A stretch of 37,504 bases of DNA from Clostridia bacterium (lineage in GTDB: Bacteria; Bacillota; Clostridia; Saccharofermentanales; Saccharofermentanaceae). Below, piece by piece: positions 4,572 to 36,848 of the stretch. Every line of letters begins with the position of its first letter. Positions within the stretch are counted from its first letter, which is position 1. The position numbers and the translations under genes were made by a program. Below the pieces are notes generated by a model. The model worked only from the letters and a program-made list of their open reading frames with translations. It was not told where the DNA came from and made no database searches. The stretch covers positions 1 through 37,504 of the forward strand of contig JAEEIT010000022.1 in the NCBI GenBank assembly GCA_016281535.1, read 5' to 3'.

Positions 4572-5036
4572 ATGAAAATTGTAAAGAGAATTGTTGCAGC
4601 TGTTGTTGTAAGTGCTATGGCTCTGTCTCTCGCCGCTTGCGGTGGCAGCAAGGCGAAGAAGATCTCTGCTGAGGATTTCCAGTCCAAGCTCGAGAAGGAG
4701 AATTACACCGTTACAGAGACTCCGTCCGGTGATGAGAAGGTCACCAAAACAATGATCGCTTATAACGAAGACATGAGCGTCATGGTTACCTACTCTCTCT
4801 ATGGCAACAAGGATGATGCGAAGAAGGCTTTCGATGATTTCAAGGATGGTGCTGAGGAAGCAAAGAAGTCCGGCGAGATCGAGAAACTGAGCACAAGTTC
4901 CAGCAAGATCACAGCTACTAGCGAAGGTCAGTGTGTTATCGTTGTATATGCTGAAGATATGATTGTTATGTCCACTTCCCTCTCCGGTGATAACGAAGAT
5001 GGCGCGAAGGCTGCTATTAAGGCTCTCGGTGTGTAA
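4572..5036 (+). CDS. Short, probably abundant lipoprotein of unknown function
   Basis: A 154-residue lipoprotein. The signal peptide MKIVKRIVAAVVVSAMALS leads into lipobox LAAC with C23 lipidated and a GGSK start of the mature protein. The mature part (about 130 residues) is rich in Lys, Asp, Glu and Ser, and looks like a small alpha/beta fold with no catalytic motif. A strong ribosome site (GAGGAGA) precedes the ATG. The gene is a single-gene transcription unit: a near-consensus promoter in front and a 10-bp GC-containing hairpin plus T-run behind. Its codon use (many GCT, GTT, AAG, GGT) differs from its C-ending neighbours, as expected for a highly expressed gene. Possible roles are a substrate-binding or surface-protective protein; neither is shown. 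Confidence 0.9.
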   Translation: MKIVKRIVAAVVVSAMALSLAACGGSKAKKISAEDFQSKLEKENYTVTETPSGDEKVTKTMIAYNEDMSVMVTYSLYGNKDDAKKAFDDFKDGAEEAKKSGEIEKLSTSSSKITATSEGQCVIVVYAEDMIVMSTSLSGDNEDGAKAAIKALGV

Positions 5037-5061: not shown

Positions 5062-5094
5062 AGAAGGACTGTCGTAAGGCAGTCCTTCTTTTTA
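5062..5094. terminator. Intrinsic terminator, possibly used from both sides
   Basis: AGAAGGACTG (5062-5071) pairs perfectly with CAGTCCTTCT (5080-5089) around an 8-nt loop, followed by TTTTT. It lies 26 bp past the lipoprotein stop. The convergent MocR gene ends 60 bp away at 5155, and the A-rich 5' flank could serve that strand as well. Confidence 0.9.
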
Positions 5095-5154: not shown

Positions 5155-6297
5155 CTACTTTCTTCTTCTTCTCCTCACGCGGTTGATGTGCCGCTCGAAG
5201 TCTCCGCTTCGAAGGAGCTCGGCCAGGACGTACTGCTCGAAGATCGGAACGGTACAGGAATAAAACCCGAGTTTCTCCTGGAATGGCTGTACGAGTTTCT
5301 TCGGCAGGATCATGTAGCCGATACGCATCGACGGCGCCAGCGTTCTTGAGAATGTATTCAGGTAAATCACATTCACTTCAGGATCCATCGAGAAGATCGG
5401 CTCCTCCGCCTTCTTCGATACAGTCAGTTCTGAATCATAGTTATCCTCGATAAGGATCCCTCCCCGCTTCTTCGCCCAGAGAAGGTACTCGAGTTTCTTC
5501 GAGATATCGACCGTTACGCCGGACGGGAAACTGTGAAACGGCGTCACGTGAAGAACTTTCGCCTTCGTCTTCCGAAGCGCCGGTGAGGAAATACCATCCG
5601 GTGTCATCGGAAGAAGATCGCATCGTATCCCCATGGCCTCATAGACCAGACGGATCTTCTTATAGGACGGATCTTCGATGGCAAAGAGAGGCCTCGAATC
5701 CGGTGTCACGCCGTTCTTCCCTGTCTGATTCCCTCCGAATGTATCCCTTCCGTCAAGTCCGATCAGAAGCTGCGCGATCAGGCCGTAGAGATACTCGGAA
5801 CCGGAGCCTACGATGACCTGGGACGGCTCGACGCTAATACCACGGCTTCGGGCAAGATACATACAGATCTCGTTCCGAAGCTCTGCACAGCCGTGGTTCG
5901 GAGATTTAATAAGAATATTCTCCCCATGATCGAGCAGGACCTTACGCATGGTTTTCGAAAGAACCGAGAAAGGAAATTCGCCGAAATCGCGGGGGCTCTC
6001 GTCCTGATCGAGTACGATCGGATCCGCCTTTCCGGATTCCTGTCCGAGGAAATCCTCGCCTCTGTAGGTCACGAATACCCCGCTTCTCTCGCGGCAGTGG
6101 ACGTACCCTTCTTCTGAAAGAAGGGTCAGTGTGTGCTCGACCGTGATGACACTGACACCGGTCTCATCGGCGATCACACGCTTACTGGGAAGTTTAGCAC
6201 CGTGGGGGTAGATCCCCGCAGCAATATCTCTGACGAAATGGTGATAGAGCTGGATATATGCCGGTTCTGCAGAATGCTTATCGATCGTATAGTTCAT
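5155..6297 (-). CDS. MocR/GntR-family regulator, C-terminally short, PLP lysine replaced by Arg
   Basis: A 380-residue protein with a GntR winged helix (about residues 8-75: QLYHHFVRDIAAGIYPHGAKLPS, then RVIADETGVSVITVEHTL) joined to a fold-type I aminotransferase-like domain. MocR proteins are normally about 450-490 residues and bind PLP through a lysine in a motif of the form SFSKTLxPxLRLGY. Here the same place reads TFSRTLAPSMRIGY: the residue is Arg318 (codon 5344-5346, AGA). The protein ends in ERHINRVRRRRRK, where relatives continue for roughly 80-100 residues. The other reading frames beyond the stop show no remnant. Catalysis or Schiff-base PLP sensing therefore looks lost. It diverges from an ECF transporter S component, the likely target. 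A functional repressor or activator and a decaying gene are both possible. Confidence 0.85.
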   Translation of the reverse strand: MNYTIDKHSAEPAYIQLYHHFVRDIAAGIYPHGAKLPSKRVIADETGVSVITVEHTLTLLSEEGYVHCRERSGVFVTYRGEDFLGQESGKADPIVLDQDESPRDFGEFPFSVLSKTMRKVLLDHGENILIKSPNHGCAELRNEICMYLARSRGISVEPSQVIVGSGSEYLYGLIAQLLIGLDGRDTFGGNQTGKNGVTPDSRPLFAIEDPSYKKIRLVYEAMGIRCDLLPMTPDGISSPALRKTKAKVLHVTPFHSFPSGVTVDISKKLEYLLWAKKRGGILIEDNYDSELTVSKKAEEPIFSMDPEVNVIYLNTFSRTLAPSMRIGYMILPKKLVQPFQEKLGFYSCTVPIFEQYVLAELLRSGDFERHINRVRRRRRK

Positions 6298-6333
6298 CTT
6301 CCTGTTCCTGTCCTTATTGAACGAAATCTAATC

Positions 6334-6378
6334 TGGTCATATATAATTCTTCAGATTTGGTCATTTCTATATGGTCAG
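6334..6378. promoter_or_regulatory. Three TGGTCA direct repeats between mocR-like gene and ECF S component
   Basis: TGGTCA occurs at 6334-6339, 6358-6363 and 6372-6377, all in the same orientation, with starts 24 and 14 bp apart. They lie in the 128-bp divergent intergenic region. MocR-type regulators characteristically bind direct repeats, so these are good operator candidates. GATACT at 6385-6390 may be the -10 of the S-component gene, which would put the repeats over its -35 region. Confidence 0.6.
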
Positions 6379-6425
6379 TTCAATGATACTATGGGCGGCA
6401 TAGGAAGTAAAGGAGAAACACAACT

Positions 6426-6968
6426 ATGAAAAAAGAAATCTACACCCCCACGATCCGCATTACCATTACAGCTGTCTTTATGGCCCTGACGATCGCCATG
6501 GCCTCGTTCGGCATTCCCGTACCGGGAGGACACCTGTATCTCTGTGACGTCATCATCTGCCTGGCTGCGATCCTTCTGAATCCGTTCGAGGCATTTCTCG
6601 TCGGCGGGCTCGGCTCCTTCTTCGGCGACCTTATCTTCTACCCGCTTCCGATGTTCGTGTCTCTCGTGACACACGGGCTTCAGGCCATCGTCATCTCACT
6701 CATTTCCCATAAGACTATGAAGGACCATCCGAAGATCGCTTCCGGTATCGGTGTTTCCGTCGGTGCCGTGATCATGGTCGTCGGGTATACCCTTGGCAAG
6801 ATCTTCGTGTACAGTACTTTTGAATATGCGATGATGAAGCTCCCCTACGAGATCGCGCAGGGAGCCCTCGGCGCCGTCCTCGGCATGATCCTGTGCTGGC
6901 GATTCGGGATCAGGAAACTGTTCCTTTCCCTCGTCGAGAGAAAGAAGAGAAACGAAGTTACGGCCTGA
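6426..6968 (+). CDS. ECF-type vitamin transporter S component (COG4720/PdxU-like)
   Basis: A 180-residue integral membrane protein with five or six hydrophobic helices and a basic C-terminal tail (RKLFLSLVERKKRNE). The N-terminal MALTIAMASFGIPVPGGHLYLCDVIICLAAILLNPFEAFLVG pattern matches the substrate-binding (S) subunits of energy-coupling factor transporters, nearest to those annotated for pyridoxine or related vitamins. Such proteins borrow a shared EcfA/EcfA'/EcfT module, not encoded in this window. A ribosome site (AAAGGAGA) precedes the ATG. The divergent MocR-like gene and the TGGTCA repeats suggest vitamin-B6-linked control, because MocR/PdxR regulators are known to govern B6 genes. 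Substrate is inferred from context; hydroxymethylpyrimidine or another vitamin remains possible. Confidence 0.8.
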   Translation: MKKEIYTPTIRITITAVFMALTIAMASFGIPVPGGHLYLCDVIICLAAILLNPFEAFLVGGLGSFFGDLIFYPLPMFVSLVTHGLQAIVISLISHKTMKDHPKIASGIGVSVGAVIMVVGYTLGKIFVYSTFEYAMMKLPYEIAQGALGAVLGMILCWRFGIRKLFLSLVERKKRNEVTA

Positions 6969-11581: not shown

Positions 11582-12475
11582 TTAAATACAGTCGTAGAAG
11601 CGCAGCGGGAATCCATTGACACCTTCGGACATACTCTCGCTGTCGATCACCTCTTCGTAGAGAAGCTCGGGATCGAATCCTGCACGCCAGAACGCATCAT
11701 AATCCGAGGCTTCCCGGCTCTCCACCCTGGTAGAAGTCAATTCTACATTTCCTTTCCGGTCTACCTTCAGATCCGAGAACGTCAGGCAGTGGAACAGTTC
11801 TTTTTCCCGGCCGTCATCGGTGGAAAGTGTCACCTTGACGATCGTAAAAAGAAGATTGTCCTTATCCGTCGTGATCAGTACCGAACGGACGATTTCCGGA
11901 TCGCCTTCATACTTCCAGTTATCCTCTTCGGACTCGAACACCGGATCTCTGTATTCTTCCTCTTCGAAATCGCAGATCATCTCGTAGATCTGCTCCTTCG
12001 CCTCCTCATCGGAAGCAAGCTCCGAACCGGTTACACGGAAAGACGTGGCTGCCGCGGCTTTCTCTGCCTGCACGGTCTTCTGTCCGGTCCTTCTCTCTTC
12101 CGAACTCTTTCTCAGGTAATCCGCTAAAATGGTAATACCTAAGCCTATGACGGCTATGATGATGAGTGTCTTGATCCAGCCGAGTATCGTCTTCTTTCTT
12201 CTGGCAAGTGCTCTCTCTTTCTCTTCCTGGAGCTTTCTTTCCTCTTTCCGAAGTTTCTCTTCTTCCTGCTTCCTGTAATATTCCTGCATGCGGGTGGTCG
12301 TCTCCGTAAGGGATTGCACGATATAGGCTTCGGCATTGACAGTCTTCTCGTACTCGACATCACTTTCATCTTTCTCGATGTCGAAGGTACCGCCGCAGAA
12401 GGCACAGACCAGTTTCTCGCCTTCCAGGTGCAGAGGGGCATTACAGTTTCTACAGTTCATGACTTTCAGTTTCAT
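11582..12475 (-). CDS. Zinc-ribbon/coiled-coil/TM protein, paralogue 3 of a tandem trio
   Basis: A 297-residue protein. The start at 12475 overlaps the upstream stop as ATGA and has GGAGGGA before it. An N-terminal zinc ribbon (C8/C11/C24/C27) is followed by an acidic segment with DVEYEK. A long Glu/Lys/Arg coiled coil comes next (about residues 65-100), then one TM helix (TLIIIAVIGLGITILADYL) and an outer domain of about 160 residues. Positive charge before the helix implies ribbon inside, C-terminal domain outside. The outer domain shares with its two neighbours a beta-rich block and a closing segment (here FWRAGFDPELLYEEV). It is the last gene of the three-gene set. Function unknown; signal transfer across the membrane is a guess. 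Confidence 0.88.
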   Translation of the reverse strand: MKLKVMNCRNCNAPLHLEGEKLVCAFCGGTFDIEKDESDVEYEKTVNAEAYIVQSLTETTTRMQEYYRKQEEEKLRKEERKLQEEKERALARRKKTILGWIKTLIIIAVIGLGITILADYLRKSSEERRTGQKTVQAEKAAAATSFRVTGSELASDEEAKEQIYEMICDFEEEEYRDPVFESEEDNWKYEGDPEIVRSVLITTDKDNLLFTIVKVTLSTDDGREKELFHCLTFSDLKVDRKGNVELTSTRVESREASDYDAFWRAGFDPELLYEEVIDSESMSEGVNGFPLRFYDCI

Positions 12476-13356
12476 GCTCTTCCCTCCTTCCACGTATCCG
12501 GGATCTCGATCTCCTCCGGTTTGAAAGAGCTCTTCGCTGCCGAGAACATTTCCCGGATCAGCTGGTCCTTGTCGAAATAAGCCGTATAATACATATCTCC
12601 ATGGACGCCTTCCTTGGGGAAATACTCCTCCACCATATATCCGTAATCATCTCTCTTGAGATCGGTAAGTTCAACGCAGTCATAAAGTGTGAAGATCTCT
12701 CCTGTATCCTCGTACTCGTAGCTGAAGCGATAGATCAGAAGAAGTCCTGTGGAATTGTATCCGCTGGTCCGGATAATATAAACACTATCGATCGTCGCAT
12801 CGTTTCTGTAGATCGCGGTACGGTCTTCGTCATACCGGCCGTCGGATATCGGCTCCTGGCGGCGCAGATCGACGAGTCTCTGTCCTCCGGCGACGGCGTT
12901 CTCCAGAAAATGCATATCTTCCGTGACCGTCTCGACCAGCGCCGTCCGTTCCTGTTCCCGCTGCTCATCCAGTTTCCTGCTGCTTCTGCTGAGTGTCCGC
13001 ACCAGATATACAGAAGTGAGGATCATCGGGATTATGGAGATGACCAGTGCAACAATATACATGCCTATACCGGCCGCGCCCTGCTTGACGGCCTTCTTGC
13101 GCTGACGGGAGATCTCCCGCTGCTGCTCGTTTCTTGCCATCTGCTCACGAAGGACGTAGTCGGTCTGCATGACGTTCACATCCTTCTGGAGCAGCATCTT
13201 CGTTCTTTCCGCTTCAGTGATGAGCTGGGTGTACTTCACATCGTTTTCGTCATAATCGACGGCGAAGGCCGAACCGCAGCTGGTGCAGAAGAACATATCC
13301 CTTTCCTGGTTCAGAAGGCCATTACACTGTGGACAGTTTAAATTCGTAAGTTTCAT
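12472..13356 (-). CDS. Zinc-ribbon/coiled-coil/TM protein, paralogue 2 of a tandem trio
   Basis: A 294-residue protein of the same build: ribbon C8/C11/C24/C27 (LNCPQCNGLL...FFCTSCG), the link FAVDYDENDVKYTQ, a charged coiled coil (about 50-90), one TM helix (GMYIVALVISIIPMILTSVYLV) and an outer domain. The outer domain begins with a second charged helix (RSSRKLDEQREQER), then a beta-rich part with GLLLIYRFSYEYEDTGEIFTLYDCVEL that aligns by eye with both neighbours. It starts 18 bp after the stop of paralogue 1 and overlaps paralogue 3 by 4 bp, so the three are translationally coupled or nearly so. Tandem duplication followed by divergence is the plain reading. Function unknown. Confidence 0.9.
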   Translation of the reverse strand: MKLTNLNCPQCNGLLNQERDMFFCTSCGSAFAVDYDENDVKYTQLITEAERTKMLLQKDVNVMQTDYVLREQMARNEQQREISRQRKKAVKQGAAGIGMYIVALVISIIPMILTSVYLVRTLSRSSRKLDEQREQERTALVETVTEDMHFLENAVAGGQRLVDLRRQEPISDGRYDEDRTAIYRNDATIDSVYIIRTSGYNSTGLLLIYRFSYEYEDTGEIFTLYDCVELTDLKRDDYGYMVEEYFPKEGVHGDMYYTAYFDKDQLIREMFSAAKSSFKPEEIEIPDTWKEGRA

Positions 13357-13374
13357 GTGATTCCCTCCTCCCCT

Positions 13375-14262
13375 TTATTCCTGCTTCGCGCCGGAAAGGA
13401 TCTTCTCCGGCATGGTGAAAGGCTCACTCTTCACGTCGTCACCATAGGACAGACACTCGGACATAAGTGTATCCATATCTTCGAAACCGCCGTGAAGACC
13501 GGCATACCCGTAGTACACGTCCGGTTCGTAATCGGAATAGATCTTACCCTCAGTGTCCACACCGGACACAATGATCGTGACCGGAACATAAAGTGTCTTC
13601 TCTTCACTTCCATCCTCAGAGGAAAAGTCCAGTGCGAAGACCATCGTCAATTCAGTTCTTTCGAAGCGGTACACCAGGAAAGCTTCTTCGTAACTGGCAT
13701 GTCCCGTGTAGGTCAGTATTCTTTCCGGATCTCTCAGTTTCGCCTCCTGCTTCACCAGATATTTCACCGCATAGAGGTTCGCATCGTAGGCCGTTTCCAG
13801 AAAGTCTTCATCTTTCAGGATCTCTTTCCCTTCGATGACCCCGCTTCTGACCTGTAGCTGCTGCTTGGTATTCGATTTCGTCCCTCCCAGGAGATTCGTG
13901 CTCTTGATACTCTTGGAGAAAATCCGAAGCCCCACAAAGAAGAGAACATAGAGGAGGAAGAATCCGCCGAGAATGACGGCGAGCCTCACGAACATATTCT
14001 CGAAGATCTGATAGCCTTTTCTTCTTTGGCGCTGCATCTCATTGTACTGTTGCTGCCGGGCGATCTGTGCGCGTGTCAGGGATAATGTCAGATCCCTGTC
14101 AAGCTGGGCCTGGTTTCTCTCCTGCTCGGTTTCTTTCTCCGCGCGGGCCACATCTTCCTGTCCCCAGTCGACCGCATACTCGGTGCCGCAGTTCGGGCAC
14201 TTGTATTTCCCGTCGATCATGGCCAAAGGTGTCCCGCAGTTTCTGCAGAAATTATTTGCCAT
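13375..14262 (-). CDS. Zinc-ribbon/coiled-coil/TM protein, paralogue 1 of a tandem trio
   Basis: A 295-residue protein and first gene of the trio. Start 14262 is chosen because GGAGGGG is 6 bp upstream and the ribbon opens directly (MANNFCRNCG, C6/C9/C22/C25); the frame extends further upstream without coding character. The order is ribbon, FEYAVDW-like link (TEYAVDWGQEDVARAEK), coiled coil, TM helix (LAVILGGFFLLYVLFFVGLRIF), outer domain. An extended -10 (TGCTATAAT, minus strand, -10 hexamer at 14359-14364) lies about 100 bp upstream and may drive all three genes. The outer domain ends with a helical segment (DMDTLMSECLSYGDDV), as in the others. No catalytic motif. Confidence 0.88.
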   Translation of the reverse strand: MANNFCRNCGTPLAMIDGKYKCPNCGTEYAVDWGQEDVARAEKETEQERNQAQLDRDLTLSLTRAQIARQQQYNEMQRQRRKGYQIFENMFVRLAVILGGFFLLYVLFFVGLRIFSKSIKSTNLLGGTKSNTKQQLQVRSGVIEGKEILKDEDFLETAYDANLYAVKYLVKQEAKLRDPERILTYTGHASYEEAFLVYRFERTELTMVFALDFSSEDGSEEKTLYVPVTIIVSGVDTEGKIYSDYEPDVYYGYAGLHGGFEDMDTLMSECLSYGDDVKSEPFTMPEKILSGAKQE

Positions 14263-14451
14263 CTTGCCCCTCCTTCTACTCCTTTGAGAGTCTGTCTCCT
14301 CTTTCTCAGAAGCACATAGTTCCCCTGTACTTCCACAAGACCTCAAACATCCATGATTATTATAGCATGAAGTATTTCTGCCATAATATGGGAACGAAAC
14401 CATTTATCTGCCTCTATTCTGAAGGTGCAGACGGAATACCGGCCGGGTTAT

Positions 14452-18245: not shown

Positions 18246-19433
18246 ATGCAGACACGGAACGGATTCCCTATCTTAGGCTTCGGGTGCATGCGGTTTGCCA
18301 CGAAGGGCAGGAGCATTGACTTCGAGAAGGCGGAAGCGCAGCTTCTTCGTGCGATCGAGCTGGGTGTGACGTATTGGGATACAGCATATATTTATCCCGG
18401 CAGTGAAGATACCATCGGACGTGTCATGGAGAAGCACGGACTGCGCGACAAGATCATCCTGACAACGAAGCTTCCGCAGTATCTCGTGAAGAAGCGCGAG
18501 GATCTGGATAAATATCTGGACGAGGAACTCAGACGCCTTCGCACCGATCACCTCGACTATTATCTTTTCCATCACATGACGGATGTTGCGCAGTGGGAGC
18601 GGCTGGAAGCGCTCGGTGTGCGCGAATGGATCGCGGAGAAGAAATCGCAGGGCAAGTTTCTGCATGTGGGTTTCTCCTTCCACGGGAATACGGAGATGTA
18701 CCTGAAACTTCTGGATGCGTACGGCTGGGAGCTCAGTCTCGTGCAGTACAATTATATGGATGAGCATTCGCAGGCCGGGCGTGAAGGGATCTGCGCCGCT
18801 TACGCCAAGGGCGTGCCGGTGTTCATCATGGAACCGCTTCGTGGCGGCAAGCTCGTCGATCTTCTTCCCGAGAAAGCCAAGAAACAGATCGCTTCGGACT
18901 CCCATGGCTGGAGCCCGGCCGAGTGGGCATTCCGCTGGCTGTGGAACCAGAAGGAGGTCACCTGTGTGCTCTCGGGCATGAATTCCATCGAGATGCTCGA
19001 GGAGAATGCCCGCATCGCATCAGATGTCAAAGCCGGTGCCTGGGGCGAAGACGAGAACGCCATGATCGACAGGATCCGCACATATATCAACGAGAATACG
19101 AAGGTCGGCTGCACCGGCTGTAAATACTGTCTCCCCTGCCCTCGAGGCGTGGATATTCCGGGCGTTTTCTCCTGCTATAACCATATGTATTCGGAGAGCA
19201 AAGGCTCCGGGAGGAAGGAATACTTCCAGACGATCGCGCTGCGTCTTCAGCCGGCTGATGCCGCGCGCTGTGTGGAGTGCGGGAAATGCGAGCAGCACTG
19301 TCCGCAGAATATCCCGATCCGGCAGAAACTGAAGGAGGCCTCCCGGGCACTTCAGCCCATGCCATATAAAGTGGCGGCGAAGTTCGCGCGCCGTTTCCTC
19401 GTCGGAAAGAAGAAAGCCACGTCTGACAACTGA
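18246..19433 (+). CDS. Aldo/keto reductase with C-terminal 4Fe-4S ferredoxin domain (COG1453)
   Basis: A 395-residue two-domain oxidoreductase. Residues 1-275 form the aldo/keto reductase barrel, with the family residues Asp45, Tyr50, Lys75 and the His pair at 109-110 visible. Residues 285-360 carry two cysteine clusters: C289/C292/C295/C298 followed by P, and C342/C345/C348/C352 followed by P (CxxCxxCxxxCP). These are the motifs of a two-cluster ferredoxin-like domain and mark the COG1453 branch common in anaerobes. The likely activity is reduction of a carbonyl with electrons passing through the clusters; the substrate is unknown. A GGGGGGA ribosome site precedes the ATG. The 9-mer AGTGCTTTT (18179) and TAGAAT (18207-18212) lie upstream. 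Confidence 0.93.
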   Translation: MQTRNGFPILGFGCMRFATKGRSIDFEKAEAQLLRAIELGVTYWDTAYIYPGSEDTIGRVMEKHGLRDKIILTTKLPQYLVKKREDLDKYLDEELRRLRTDHLDYYLFHHMTDVAQWERLEALGVREWIAEKKSQGKFLHVGFSFHGNTEMYLKLLDAYGWELSLVQYNYMDEHSQAGREGICAAYAKGVPVFIMEPLRGGKLVDLLPEKAKKQIASDSHGWSPAEWAFRWLWNQKEVTCVLSGMNSIEMLEENARIASDVKAGAWGEDENAMIDRIRTYINENTKVGCTGCKYCLPCPRGVDIPGVFSCYNHMYSESKGSGRKEYFQTIALRLQPADAARCVECGKCEQHCPQNIPIRQKLKEASRALQPMPYKVAAKFARRFLVGKKKATSDN

Positions 19434-32889: not shown

Positions 32890-34101
32890 TCACGCCTCCC
32901 CGCCCTTCTCTCCGCGGTGCGCCCGGATATACGCCAGGGACTTCTTCGTATCCTCATGGATCTCCATCCCCTTCTTCCCGAAGCTCTCCTTGATCGCCAG
33001 ATAGCACTCGATCATCGCCGCATCCAGATCCGTCTCCGCACAGCGCCGAATCTCCGTCAGATCATCATAATCCCGGGCCGGCTCCAGCTTATCCGCCAGA
33101 TACACGATCTTATCCGTGATCGTCATCACTTCCCGCCCCACGGTATGGAACTGGATCGCATCGAGCACCTCCTGGTCCTCGACACCATAATGCTCCCGCG
33201 CATAGACCGCCCCCGCCGGCGAATGCAGGATCTGTTTGCCGGGAATATACCCGTGGATGATCTTCGCCGCCAGATCGATCTGTACCTTCTCAGGAAGCTC
33301 CTTCGCACAGTCATGAAGAAGCGCAGCCAGCGCACACTTATCCGGATCCGCCCCGAAACGCATCGCATACCGGGTCGCCAGCACGCACACGTTCATACTG
33401 TGCAGCAGCCTCTTCCCGGAAAGCTCACGGAAAAGCGTAAAACAATGCTTCATCAGCGTCTGATACATCTCATCGGAAACATGCAGTAGCGGTGCATCCT
33501 CACAATAGAGGTCATGGCACTTGATAAACTCTCTCACTGCATCCGGGATCCCCTTCTCCGACGACCAGTCTGCACGGCTGCGGATCGCAGACGACGCGAC
33601 CTCCACCCCGTCGATCTGGAAGAACTTCACTTTCGTCCCGAAGATCTCCTCCAGATGGGCAGCCTGATTTCTCGCCTGTCCCTCATCGATCCCCGGACGA
33701 AGCGCACAGAGAAGCTTCGCCTGCGCAAGGATCTCCTCCGGAAGGTACCAGGACTCGAACTCGAAGAGAAGATCCGAACCACACATCAGGAACAGCTCAT
33801 CCTTATCCGAGACGACCTTCTCCTTCCGAAGATTCTTAAGCGTCTCCACCGTATAGCTCTTCTCCCCGAAGACCTGCTCGATGTCACACACCTCGCACTT
33901 CGGCTCATCCTTCAGCGCCGCTTTCACCATATAGAACCGATAAGGAGACAGCGTCACCTTCCTCGCCGGCTTGAAACAAGGCATCCCCGTCGGGATCACG
34001 AGCACACGGTCGACCTTCTTGCTCTTGATCGCCCCGCGGATCATGGACAGATGTCCGTTGTGAAATGGATCAAATGCGCCGCCGTAAATGCCGATTCTCA
34101 A
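32890..34101 (-). CDS. nadD: Fused nicotinate-nucleotide adenylyltransferase (NadD) and YqeK HD phosphatase, TTG start
   Basis: A 403-residue fusion. The start is read as TTG at 34101: GGAAGGAG lies 7 bp before it and the NadD strand (LRIGIYGGAFDPFHNGHL) begins there; the ATG at 34152 would add 17 unrelated residues. Residues 1-200 are NadD, with GGAFDPFHNGHL for ATP and the late SSAIRSR motif. They turn nicotinate mononucleotide and ATP into deamido-NAD. Residues of about 215-400 are YqeK (HSMNVCVLATRYAMRFG...LLHDCAKELP), an HD-domain hydrolase that splits diadenosine tetraphosphate. The two are adjacent separate genes in most Firmicutes and fused in some. The next gene downstream is rsfS. 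Confidence 0.95.
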   Translation of the reverse strand: MRIGIYGGAFDPFHNGHLSMIRGAIKSKKVDRVLVIPTGMPCFKPARKVTLSPYRFYMVKAALKDEPKCEVCDIEQVFGEKSYTVETLKNLRKEKVVSDKDELFLMCGSDLLFEFESWYLPEEILAQAKLLCALRPGIDEGQARNQAAHLEEIFGTKVKFFQIDGVEVASSAIRSRADWSSEKGIPDAVREFIKCHDLYCEDAPLLHVSDEMYQTLMKHCFTLFRELSGKRLLHSMNVCVLATRYAMRFGADPDKCALAALLHDCAKELPEKVQIDLAAKIIHGYIPGKQILHSPAGAVYAREHYGVEDQEVLDAIQFHTVGREVMTITDKIVYLADKLEPARDYDDLTEIRRCAETDLDAAMIECYLAIKESFGKKGMEIHEDTKKSLAYIRAHRGEKGGEA

Positions 34102-34218
34102 GTTCTGTCTCCTTCCATCGCCGTAAGGAGAAGAACTGTTCCCCGCGGCCATTTCCCAAATTTCGCAGCCGGACGCGCCCTCTCAGAAGAAGTGCCCCGG
34201 CACGCACCTTCGTGCTTC

Positions 34219-35591: not shown

Positions 35592-36848
35592 TCAGGTCTG
35601 CACAAGCAGGACCTGGCTTACGACCCAATTGTCCTCGATCAGGGAATACTCCGCGCCGCAGTACGGGCAGGTCGTGACATGGATCGCATCGAAGGAACCG
35701 CTGCATTTCTTGCAGTTGACCGCATGGATCGTAAATCCCAGGTCTTCCTCTTTCACCTTCTTCGCCAATATCATGGAGAACGTCTGCTTCCGGAAAAACA
35801 CATATCCGTTCTCATAGTACGCGCAGACGACATAGGCCTTCACACTGACACGCAGGATGTTATTGATCACACTGTGCCCGACATACTCCACCGCACCGCG
35901 GTACTCAACGTCCACGATATTATCCATGAATGAAAGATCGTCCGCGCCATCGTAGATCGTCAGTTTCTTTCTGTCATCAGAGAACACGATCCCCCGAAGA
36001 AGAGAGATCACCTTCTCCTCGAAGAACTCATACGAGAAATCCGGAATATACCGCTTCAGATCTATCTCCATCCGTTCTTTCGTCCGCATGGCAGACTGGA
36101 CGGGTGCCACCTCCGTCTGCTGGGCAATCTTCTTGCCCGCCAGAAGCGGACCCGACATGAGAAGGAAGAAAAGAAAGACGAAGAACAGGAGGCCGCCGGT
36201 AAAGATGATGATGGCGAATATCGTCATCGCAATCGTTCCGCCAATGCTGTATCCCTGTTCCGAGGAAATACTCAGCCCGGCCACCAGGCCGAAAAAGATG
36301 CCCAGAACGGTGAAGATCAAGAACAGGAACTTGCTTGCCCCTTTCGCCACCTTCTTATTCAGAAGCGTCGGCCGCGTGTAGTAACCGGACACACAGGGAT
36401 AGGACTGTACCATCTCATAAGTGGTCCCGCACATCGGACAGCCGGACTTAAAGTTCGAGAGAAGATCCCTGTGCCCGCAGTTCTTACAGGTGCATGACTC
36501 CTGTCCCTGGTCTTTCTTCTCCAGGATCCCCAGGTACAGCGTTTCTTCCTCCAGATCGGAGCGCGACAGGTACTTCCCGCTCCCGTCGTAGAACTCCGTG
36601 ACGTAGTTACAGAAGTTCGAATCGACCGTATAGGTATACGGGTGTTTCTGGTACTGCCAGACAAATTCTTTCTCCGGGCCCGCATTGTCGAACCTTTTAC
36701 TCATCCGAAGTCCGAATTTACGCACCCGTTCTCTCTGGCACGCCAGACCGAACCGAAGGTCCGCCGATGAGTCCTGCGGAAAAGCACCGTCCTGATAGAA
36801 GTGTGTCAGTTCAGCTGTGTATTTCCTGCGAATCTGTGAATAATCCAT
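35592..36848 (-). CDS. Double zinc-ribbon membrane protein, possible Tim44-like domain
   Basis: A 418-residue protein. After an N-terminal soluble part comes one ribbon (C121/C124/C137/C140). Two TM segments follow near 170-195 and 205-240, rich in Phe. Residues of about 255-375 resemble a Tim44-like or NTF2-like fold (IPDFSYEFFEEKVISLLRGI...VKAYVVCAYYENG), a tentative call. A second ribbon closes the protein (C379/C382/C394/C397, CPYCGAEYSL). With both ribbons on one side, an inside location is simplest. It starts 12 bp after the 42-codon ORF at 36861-36989, likely co-transcribed. It belongs to the set of ribbon-bearing membrane proteins in this window. Function unknown. Confidence 0.87.
   Translation of the reverse strand: MDYSQIRRKYTAELTHFYQDGAFPQDSSADLRFGLACQRERVRKFGLRMSKRFDNAGPEKEFVWQYQKHPYTYTVDSNFCNYVTEFYDGSGKYLSRSDLEEETLYLGILEKKDQGQESCTCKNCGHRDLLSNFKSGCPMCGTTYEMVQSYPCVSGYYTRPTLLNKKVAKGASKFLFLIFTVLGIFFGLVAGLSISSEQGYSIGGTIAMTIFAIIIFTGGLLFFVFLFFLLMSGPLLAGKKIAQQTEVAPVQSAMRTKERMEIDLKRYIPDFSYEFFEEKVISLLRGIVFSDDRKKLTIYDGADDLSFMDNIVDVEYRGAVEYVGHSVINNILRVSVKAYVVCAYYENGYVFFRKQTFSMILAKKVKEEDLGFTIHAVNCKKCSGSFDAIHVTTCPYCGAEYSLIEDNWVVSQVLLVQT

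Follow-up and report, generated by a model that had tools for sequence, protein, structure and literature searches.

The locus described here raises the question of whether a regulator of the MocR type can still serve a vitamin gene once it has lost both the lysine that carries its cofactor and the small lobe of its sensor domain. In the MocR regulators described so far, the aminotransferase domain has two lobes and PLP is bound to it as a Schiff base. In a 37,504-nucleotide stretch of DNA from a Clostridia bacterium, analyzed as a whole and referred to below as the window, a regulator gene facing a vitamin transporter component encodes arginine at the place of the PLP lysine and ends early; a first-pass annotation had offered two readings, ligand sensing without a Schiff base and gene decay. 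The features of the regulator and of its 3′ side are listed here.

5155–6297, minus strand: short PdxR/MocR-type regulator of 380 amino acids, with a winged helix-turn-helix and a large PLP domain and without the small C-terminal subdomain (ORF, Pfam, profile alignment)
6070–6258, minus strand: GntR-type winged helix-turn-helix, residues 14–76 (PF00392, 47.5 bits)
5344–5346, minus strand: codon of Arg318, which occupies the PLP-lysine position (GabR Lys312; alignment)
5158–5193, minus strand: basic end of the helix that leads toward the absent small subdomain (RHINRVRRRRRK), where the protein stops (sequence, alignment)
5062–5089, plus strand: terminator-like hairpin that follows the neighboring gene, 3′ of the regulator (with 12 pairs and a run of T; shuffles of the region also yield about one such site)

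The N-terminal DNA-binding domain is intact, as first annotated, and is followed by an AAT-like large PLP domain (PF00155, 38.8 bits, and a profile alignment with PdxR and GabR). The motif that would carry the PLP lysine reads TFSRTLAPSMRIGY, with Arg318 in the lysine column and no gap in the alignment around it, and 62 residues follow before the stop, so that both the substitution and the early end reported earlier were borne out. A profile of 59 sequences, the window protein included, aligned up to residue 373 of 478 in PdxR (PDB 7pq9, which we take to be the B. clausii protein) and residue 374 of 479 in GabR (PDB 4n0b); about 105 C-terminal residues, including the equivalent of GabR Arg430, are therefore gone, and with them the small subdomain. 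PdxR 7pq9 was the closest solved relative (278.8 bits), and the PdxR model NF052282 matched with 344.1 bits against a cut-off of 320, over profile positions 1–358 of 448 only. The stop point, RHINRVRRRRRK, takes the place of the GabR basic patch at 362–368 as given in PMC6677901, where the basic linker helix is counted in the conserved MocR core. The regulator stop is considered real, because the neighboring gene on the 3′ side ends at 5036, leaving a gap of 118 bases in which the lost 105-residue lobe could not fit, and because close relatives stop at the identical place.

Relatives were collected at several depths (L and G numbers denote loci and genomes, respectively). Within the family, 35 of 115 genomes matched the regulator at 1e-40, and five of these matches (G001, G002, G004, G006, and G007) were full-length paralogues with frames of 471–545 codons. 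From a scan of genome contigs the best 80 of 159 loci were picked by likeness to the window; 40 further regions and 30 full-length loci were added, giving 181 loci and 164 distinct proteins once L002 (a weak partial match) and exact duplicates had been left out. The number of residues after the lysine column was 61–81 in 120 of these proteins and 137–176 in the other 44, with none between. On a quick maximum-likelihood tree (unrooted, with the lysine column masked, columns beyond residue 372 excluded, and 60 of 161 inner branches drawn open), the 120 short proteins make up one side of one branch with an SH-aLRT support of 100. As drawn, they are placed among the full-length rows, which had been chosen by likeness to the PdxR family or to P0001. 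The short clade adjoins full-length PdxR and shares a single end at the domain boundary.

An even class-wide sample returned the short form in 30 of 291 genomes, from 15 family codes; the frames of these 30 best matches measured 349–410 codons, and the other listed matches 436–569, apart from a 252-codon fragment at a contig edge. When 398 genomes were drawn from the whole phylum, 35 matched at 1e-75, four of them with short frames (G000, G636, G248, and G225), and G636 lies outside the class. Records not labelled as MAGs are also present among the short proteins (L046, L052, L053, L074, L080, and L111); of these, L074 belongs to Thermoclostridium caenicola and bears the lysine, and L111 belongs to Clostridium aminophilum and lacks it. 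Judged from the tree and these samples, loss of the small lobe is an event that probably happened once, and the short regulators are widespread and conserved in gut-type Clostridia.

The lysine has a different history. Its column holds Lys in 49 of the 120 short proteins, Arg in 50, Gly in 8, Gln in 6, His in 3, Val in 2, and Met and Asn in one each; among the 44 full-length proteins the residues are Lys (38), Arg (3), Gln, Thr, and Ala (one each). The six lysine-less full-length PdxR-family proteins are L125, L141, and L177 (Arg), L174 (Gln), L178 (Thr), and L181 (Ala). Within the short clade, 14 changes between lysine and its absence were counted on the best tree, 5 of them forced by well-supported branches. 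The proportion of 71 of 120 overstates how frequent the loss is, because loci resembling the window had been selected; of the 30 short proteins in the even sample, 24 kept the lysine and 6 had lost it. On the tree, lysine was lost repeatedly among short PdxRs. The first-pass annotation had treated Arg318 and the missing lobe together; both are real, but they are separate events, the lobe having apparently been lost once and the lysine repeatedly. The order we infer is truncation first, with lysine loss later, repeated, and enriched near the window's lineage.

The lysine column changes 24 times on the tree, at the 66th percentile and so like an ordinary column, and Asn314 and Arg325, which flank it, never change. 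Neither a true lysine elsewhere in the homologues nor one shifted nearby was found: the motif aligns without gaps around the column, and 71 of the 120 short proteins have no Lys there. A replacement lysine was likewise rejected, as no column has Lys in the lysine-less proteins while lacking it elsewhere, the top excess being at position 7 (54% versus 12%). Asp286 occurs in 25 of 49 lysine-bearing versus 8 of 71 lysine-less short proteins, which is a raw difference; for co-variation of lysine loss with positions 286, 257, 287, 214, and 167, tree-aware pairs were too few to support a link (at least five on supported branches, median p of 1). Lys267 is invariant in the short clade and present in 7% of full-length rows.

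What remains of the pocket was assessed using the residue roles in GabR PLP contacts given in Table 2 of PMC6917764. The window protein keeps Tyr212, Phe257, Asp285, Tyr287, and Arg325, equivalent to GabR Tyr205, Phe250, Asp279, Tyr281, and Arg319, respectively. Tyr212, Asp285, and Arg325 are kept in all 71 lysine-less short proteins, position 257 is F or Y in 71/71, and position 287 is Y or F in 69/71; the phosphate-contacting Arg325 is kept in all 120 short proteins. Across 11 pocket columns (five from the published table, with 165–167, 314, 315, and 317 as our own additions), the lysine-less clades had 18 changes, where random sensor columns would give 74.9 (ratio 0.24, P 0.002); the ratio was 0.17 in the lysine-bearing short clades and 0.32 in the full-length clades. 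Part of this conservation may be structural, because Asp285 is also kept in 44/44 full-length rows, the six lysine-less ones included, and its conservation alone would be weak evidence of PLP binding.

Substitution rates were compared in seven lysine-less pairs with dS below 0.8, for which dN/dS was 0.036–0.16 (L018/L020, 0.036; L024/L026, 0.044; L046/L047, 0.056; L023/L025, 0.063; L066/L076, with Gly, 0.090; L044/L045, 0.114; L099/L104, with His, 0.160). Some pairs at dS 0.8–1.2, a range near saturation, had higher values, up to 0.60 (L099/L146), among the 40 of 70 pairs listed. In the close lysine-less pairs, these ratios show that the sensor is under purifying selection.

The intergenic region and the gene opposite contain the following features.

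6333–6340, plus strand: putative operator half-site 1, CTGGTCAT, direct (sequence pattern)
6357–6364, plus strand: putative operator half-site 2, TTGGTCAT, direct, 24 bp on (sequence pattern)
6371–6378, minus strand: putative operator half-site 3, inverted (minus-strand reading CTGACCAT; majority sequence of relatives)
6385–6390, plus strand: GATACT, similar to a –10 element, in the S-component promoter, identified by eye (sequence)
6426–6968, plus strand: divergent S component of the ECF type, PF07155 (a family that includes PdxU and PdxU2/HmpT), with B6 uptake as its likely role (Pfam, 97.0 bits)

The divergent vitamin S component and the repeats named in the first-pass annotation are thus both present, with the half-sites lying between the two genes, and the combination of direct and inverted repeats known from PdxR operators can be read in the sequence. 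A consensus promoter scan made no call at GATACT, and its sole call, on the minus strand at 6411–6383, was no more than shuffles give. The majority operator sequence among the relatives is CTGGTtATAT, with a second direct half-site 24 bp on and then an inverted half-site with a CAg end. Two direct half-sites about 24 bp apart were found in 94 of 120 loci versus 0.4 in composition shuffles (57 of 71 lysine-less loci versus 0.24, and 37 of 49 lysine-bearing loci versus 0.16), these shuffles preserving only base composition; a stricter pattern found them in 61 of 120 versus 0.18, 60 of them at exactly 24 bp, both patterns having been written after the sequences were inspected. Half-site 1 abuts the regulator start codon in 88 of the 120 short loci, and an SD-like sequence is present in only 32 of 120, which together suggest a leaderless mRNA and tight autorepression. 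The window copy (6295–6340) has 35 extra bases with an SD-like AGGAAG, and its half-site 1 does not abut the start.

The S component matched PF07155 far above its cut-off of 26.7 bits, and its closest solved relative was chain S of 4hzu (3.6e-9), presumably HmpT. The substrate of a PF07155 protein is not readable from the family, because this is the closest structure and PdxU2/HmpT is written as one in PMC9997740, the family comprising PdxU and PdxU2/HmpT. Divergent genes were counted across the 120 short loci, and in 93 the regulator is linked to a PLP synthesis, salvage, or likely uptake gene, namely a PF07155 S component, a B6-type kinase, or PdxS. The gene opposite is a relative of the window S component in 79 loci and of pyridoxamine kinase in 11 (phmmer, 1e-4), PdxS in two, and a further PF07155 protein in one (L166). 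The one kinase scanned, opposite L150, matched NF005491 (287.6 bits versus 231); of the two PdxS genes, that at L108 was scanned (PRK04180, 510.9 bits) and that at L159 was recognized by eye. An S component, B6 kinase, or PdxS was absent opposite 23 of the 120 loci, and four loci have fewer than 350 bases to the contig end. In a tally that counted frames cut by a contig end, L083, one of these four, has a piece of an S component.

Of the genus genomes, 23 were listed: 15 have both the regulator (at 1e-40) and the S component (at 1e-12), and 8 have neither. Neither PdxS nor PdxJ was detected in the family genomes (0/115 each; 62 genomes at ≥90% completeness), and both known routes to B6 therefore seem closed to these bacteria. 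Seen in this context, and with the shared operator type, the S component is likely a B6 importer. Riboswitch control was rejected, as the window has no Rfam match at gathering score.

Elsewhere in the window, one ORF (32890–34152) combines a cytidylyltransferase-like domain (PF01467) with an HD domain (PF01966), an arrangement that we take to resemble a NadD–YqeK fusion. Cys-X2-Cys zinc-ribbon motifs were noted by eye at 579–1922, at 35592–36848, and in three proteins in a row at 11582–14403; the one scanned (11582–12493) had no Pfam match. At 18246–19433, an aldo-keto reductase with a C-terminal 4Fe-4S domain is encoded.

Among known systems, the closest likeness is to PdxR of B. clausii, C. 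glutamicum, L. monocytogenes, and streptococci, which shares the divergent pdx arrangement and the direct and inverted operator repeats. PMC5320631 describes PdxR regulons that include pdxST, pdxK, and pdxU and has the apo form activating its pdx target, an effect that PLP switches off; in the Streptococcus PdxR–PdxKU locus, PdxR likewise lies beside B6 salvage genes, including the PdxU permease (PMC11619246). The window protein differs from PdxR in lacking about 105 C-terminal residues, and the PLP lysine is lost in 71 of the 120 short proteins, the window protein included. With GabR it shares the winged helix and AAT-like large domain, the aromatic cage, the pyridine-contacting Asp, and the phosphate-contacting Arg, whereas the equivalents of Lys312, which forms the aldimine in GabR, and of Arg430 in the small subdomain, which contacts GABA (PMC6917764), are both absent. 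A precedent for a lysine-less MocR is the EnuR Lys302His laboratory mutant, which still dimerizes; that protein was made by mutation and is locked as a repressor, whereas the short PdxRs are natural. In natural EnuR the lysine is conserved in 278 of 278 proteins inspected (PMC8739950), and Lys312 is conserved across all MocR clusters according to PMC6677901. No earlier description of a short or lysine-less PdxR was found in the open-licence literature searched, and the words "lysine" and "truncated" do not occur in PMC5320631. The window regulator probably works like PdxR and descends from it; we do not file it as a canonical MocR, because the small subdomain and the PLP lysine, two defining features, are missing.

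We consider it reasonably probable that the conserved short PdxR controls B6 uptake and that, where the lysine is gone, it binds a phosphorylated B6 vitamer non-covalently. The decay suggested in the first-pass annotation, or a frameshift, sequencing, or assembly error hiding a longer frame with Lys, might be suspected from an assembly that is 80.75% complete in 201 contigs. Its probability is negligible: 119 further distinct short proteins, the non-MAG records among them, form one conserved clade with the window protein, dN/dS in the closest lysine-less pairs is well below 1, only 118 bases separate the stop from the next gene's end, and the operator sequence and co-occurrence with the S component are maintained. 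More weight attaches to a regulator that is locked in its apo, activating state, with lysine loss giving constitutive B6 uptake in an auxotroph and the sensor domain serving only as a platform for dimerization and activation. Lysine loss can indeed mean loss of sensing, since EnuR Lys302His loses PLP and, while keeping its dimer, is locked in the PLP-free state as a repressor (PMC8739950); PLP is the anti-activator of PdxR (PMC5320631), PdxS and PdxJ are missing from the family genomes, and the lysine column changes like any ordinary one. This suits an auxotroph yet leaves the constrained pocket without explanation: the change ratio is nearly equal with and without lysine (0.17 and 0.24), the equivalents of Tyr205, Asp279, and Arg319 are kept in 71/71 lysine-less proteins, and L108, whose lysine column holds Asn, lies opposite PdxS, and feedback should be worthwhile for a biosynthetic gene. 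We regard it as rather unlikely.

The retained pocket could instead hold another small molecule, such as an unphosphorylated vitamer or a non-B6 substrate of the transporter itself. Such a ligand would fit an S component whose closest solved relative is 4hzu chain S, in a family where PdxU2/HmpT is written as one (PMC9997740), and the S component of the L009 type gives scores below cut-off with other S-component families. It is nevertheless improbable, given the phosphate-contacting Arg in 120/120, the pyridoxamine kinase-type kinases (11 loci) and PdxS (2 loci) that the same clade faces, and the lack of an Rfam match at gathering score in the window. Formation of the Schiff base by a different lysine is a very remote prospect. 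Lys267, present in all short proteins but in few full-length ones, and Lys214, present in 86% of lysine-less rows, would be the candidates, but both are about as common in lysine-bearing short proteins (100 and 88%, respectively), and Lys267 falls in the first helical turn at GabR position 260, a residue that is not listed as a PLP contact.

Under non-covalent B6-phosphate binding, the favored explanation, short PdxR would have arisen from full-length PdxR by a single loss of the small subdomain, the protein being cut at the domain boundary that follows the basic linker helix. Keeping the DNA-binding head, the large domain, and that helix, it would do PdxR's job with a smaller machine, binding the three-part operator between its own gene and the gene it controls, here the PF07155 S component. 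As in known PdxR, scarcity of B6 would probably lead to activation of the target, and the regulator's own gene would be repressed. In lysine-less proteins, PLP or another B6 5′-phosphate would most likely be held, without a Schiff base, by the retained aromatic cage, the Asp that contacts the pyridine, and the Arg that contacts the phosphate, and this binding would alter the dimer or the linker so that activation stops. Signalling as in GabR is questionable for short PdxR, because GabR's response is considered to include a shift of the small subdomain (PMC6917764), a lobe that short PdxR no longer has. The earlier proposal of sensing without a Schiff base therefore stands in part: the PLP pocket retained in lysine-less clades fits it, and sensing itself is an extrapolation from sequence. 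Tentatively, and with more doubt than confidence, the lysine-less short PdxRs might be natural sensors that bind B6 phosphates non-covalently on an aminotransferase fold reduced to one lobe; with no aldehyde required any longer, they could perhaps respond to the total of PLP, PMP, and PNP rather than to PLP only.

In a natural clade that has shed the small lobe and, repeatedly, the lysine, while selection has kept the rest of the pocket, the binding of PLP is set apart from its chemistry; close relatives with and without lysine offer material for a direct test. In gut Clostridia apparently unable to make the vitamin, the clade further points to genes likely to serve B6 uptake, and its short PdxRs may sense vitamin B6 in a new way.
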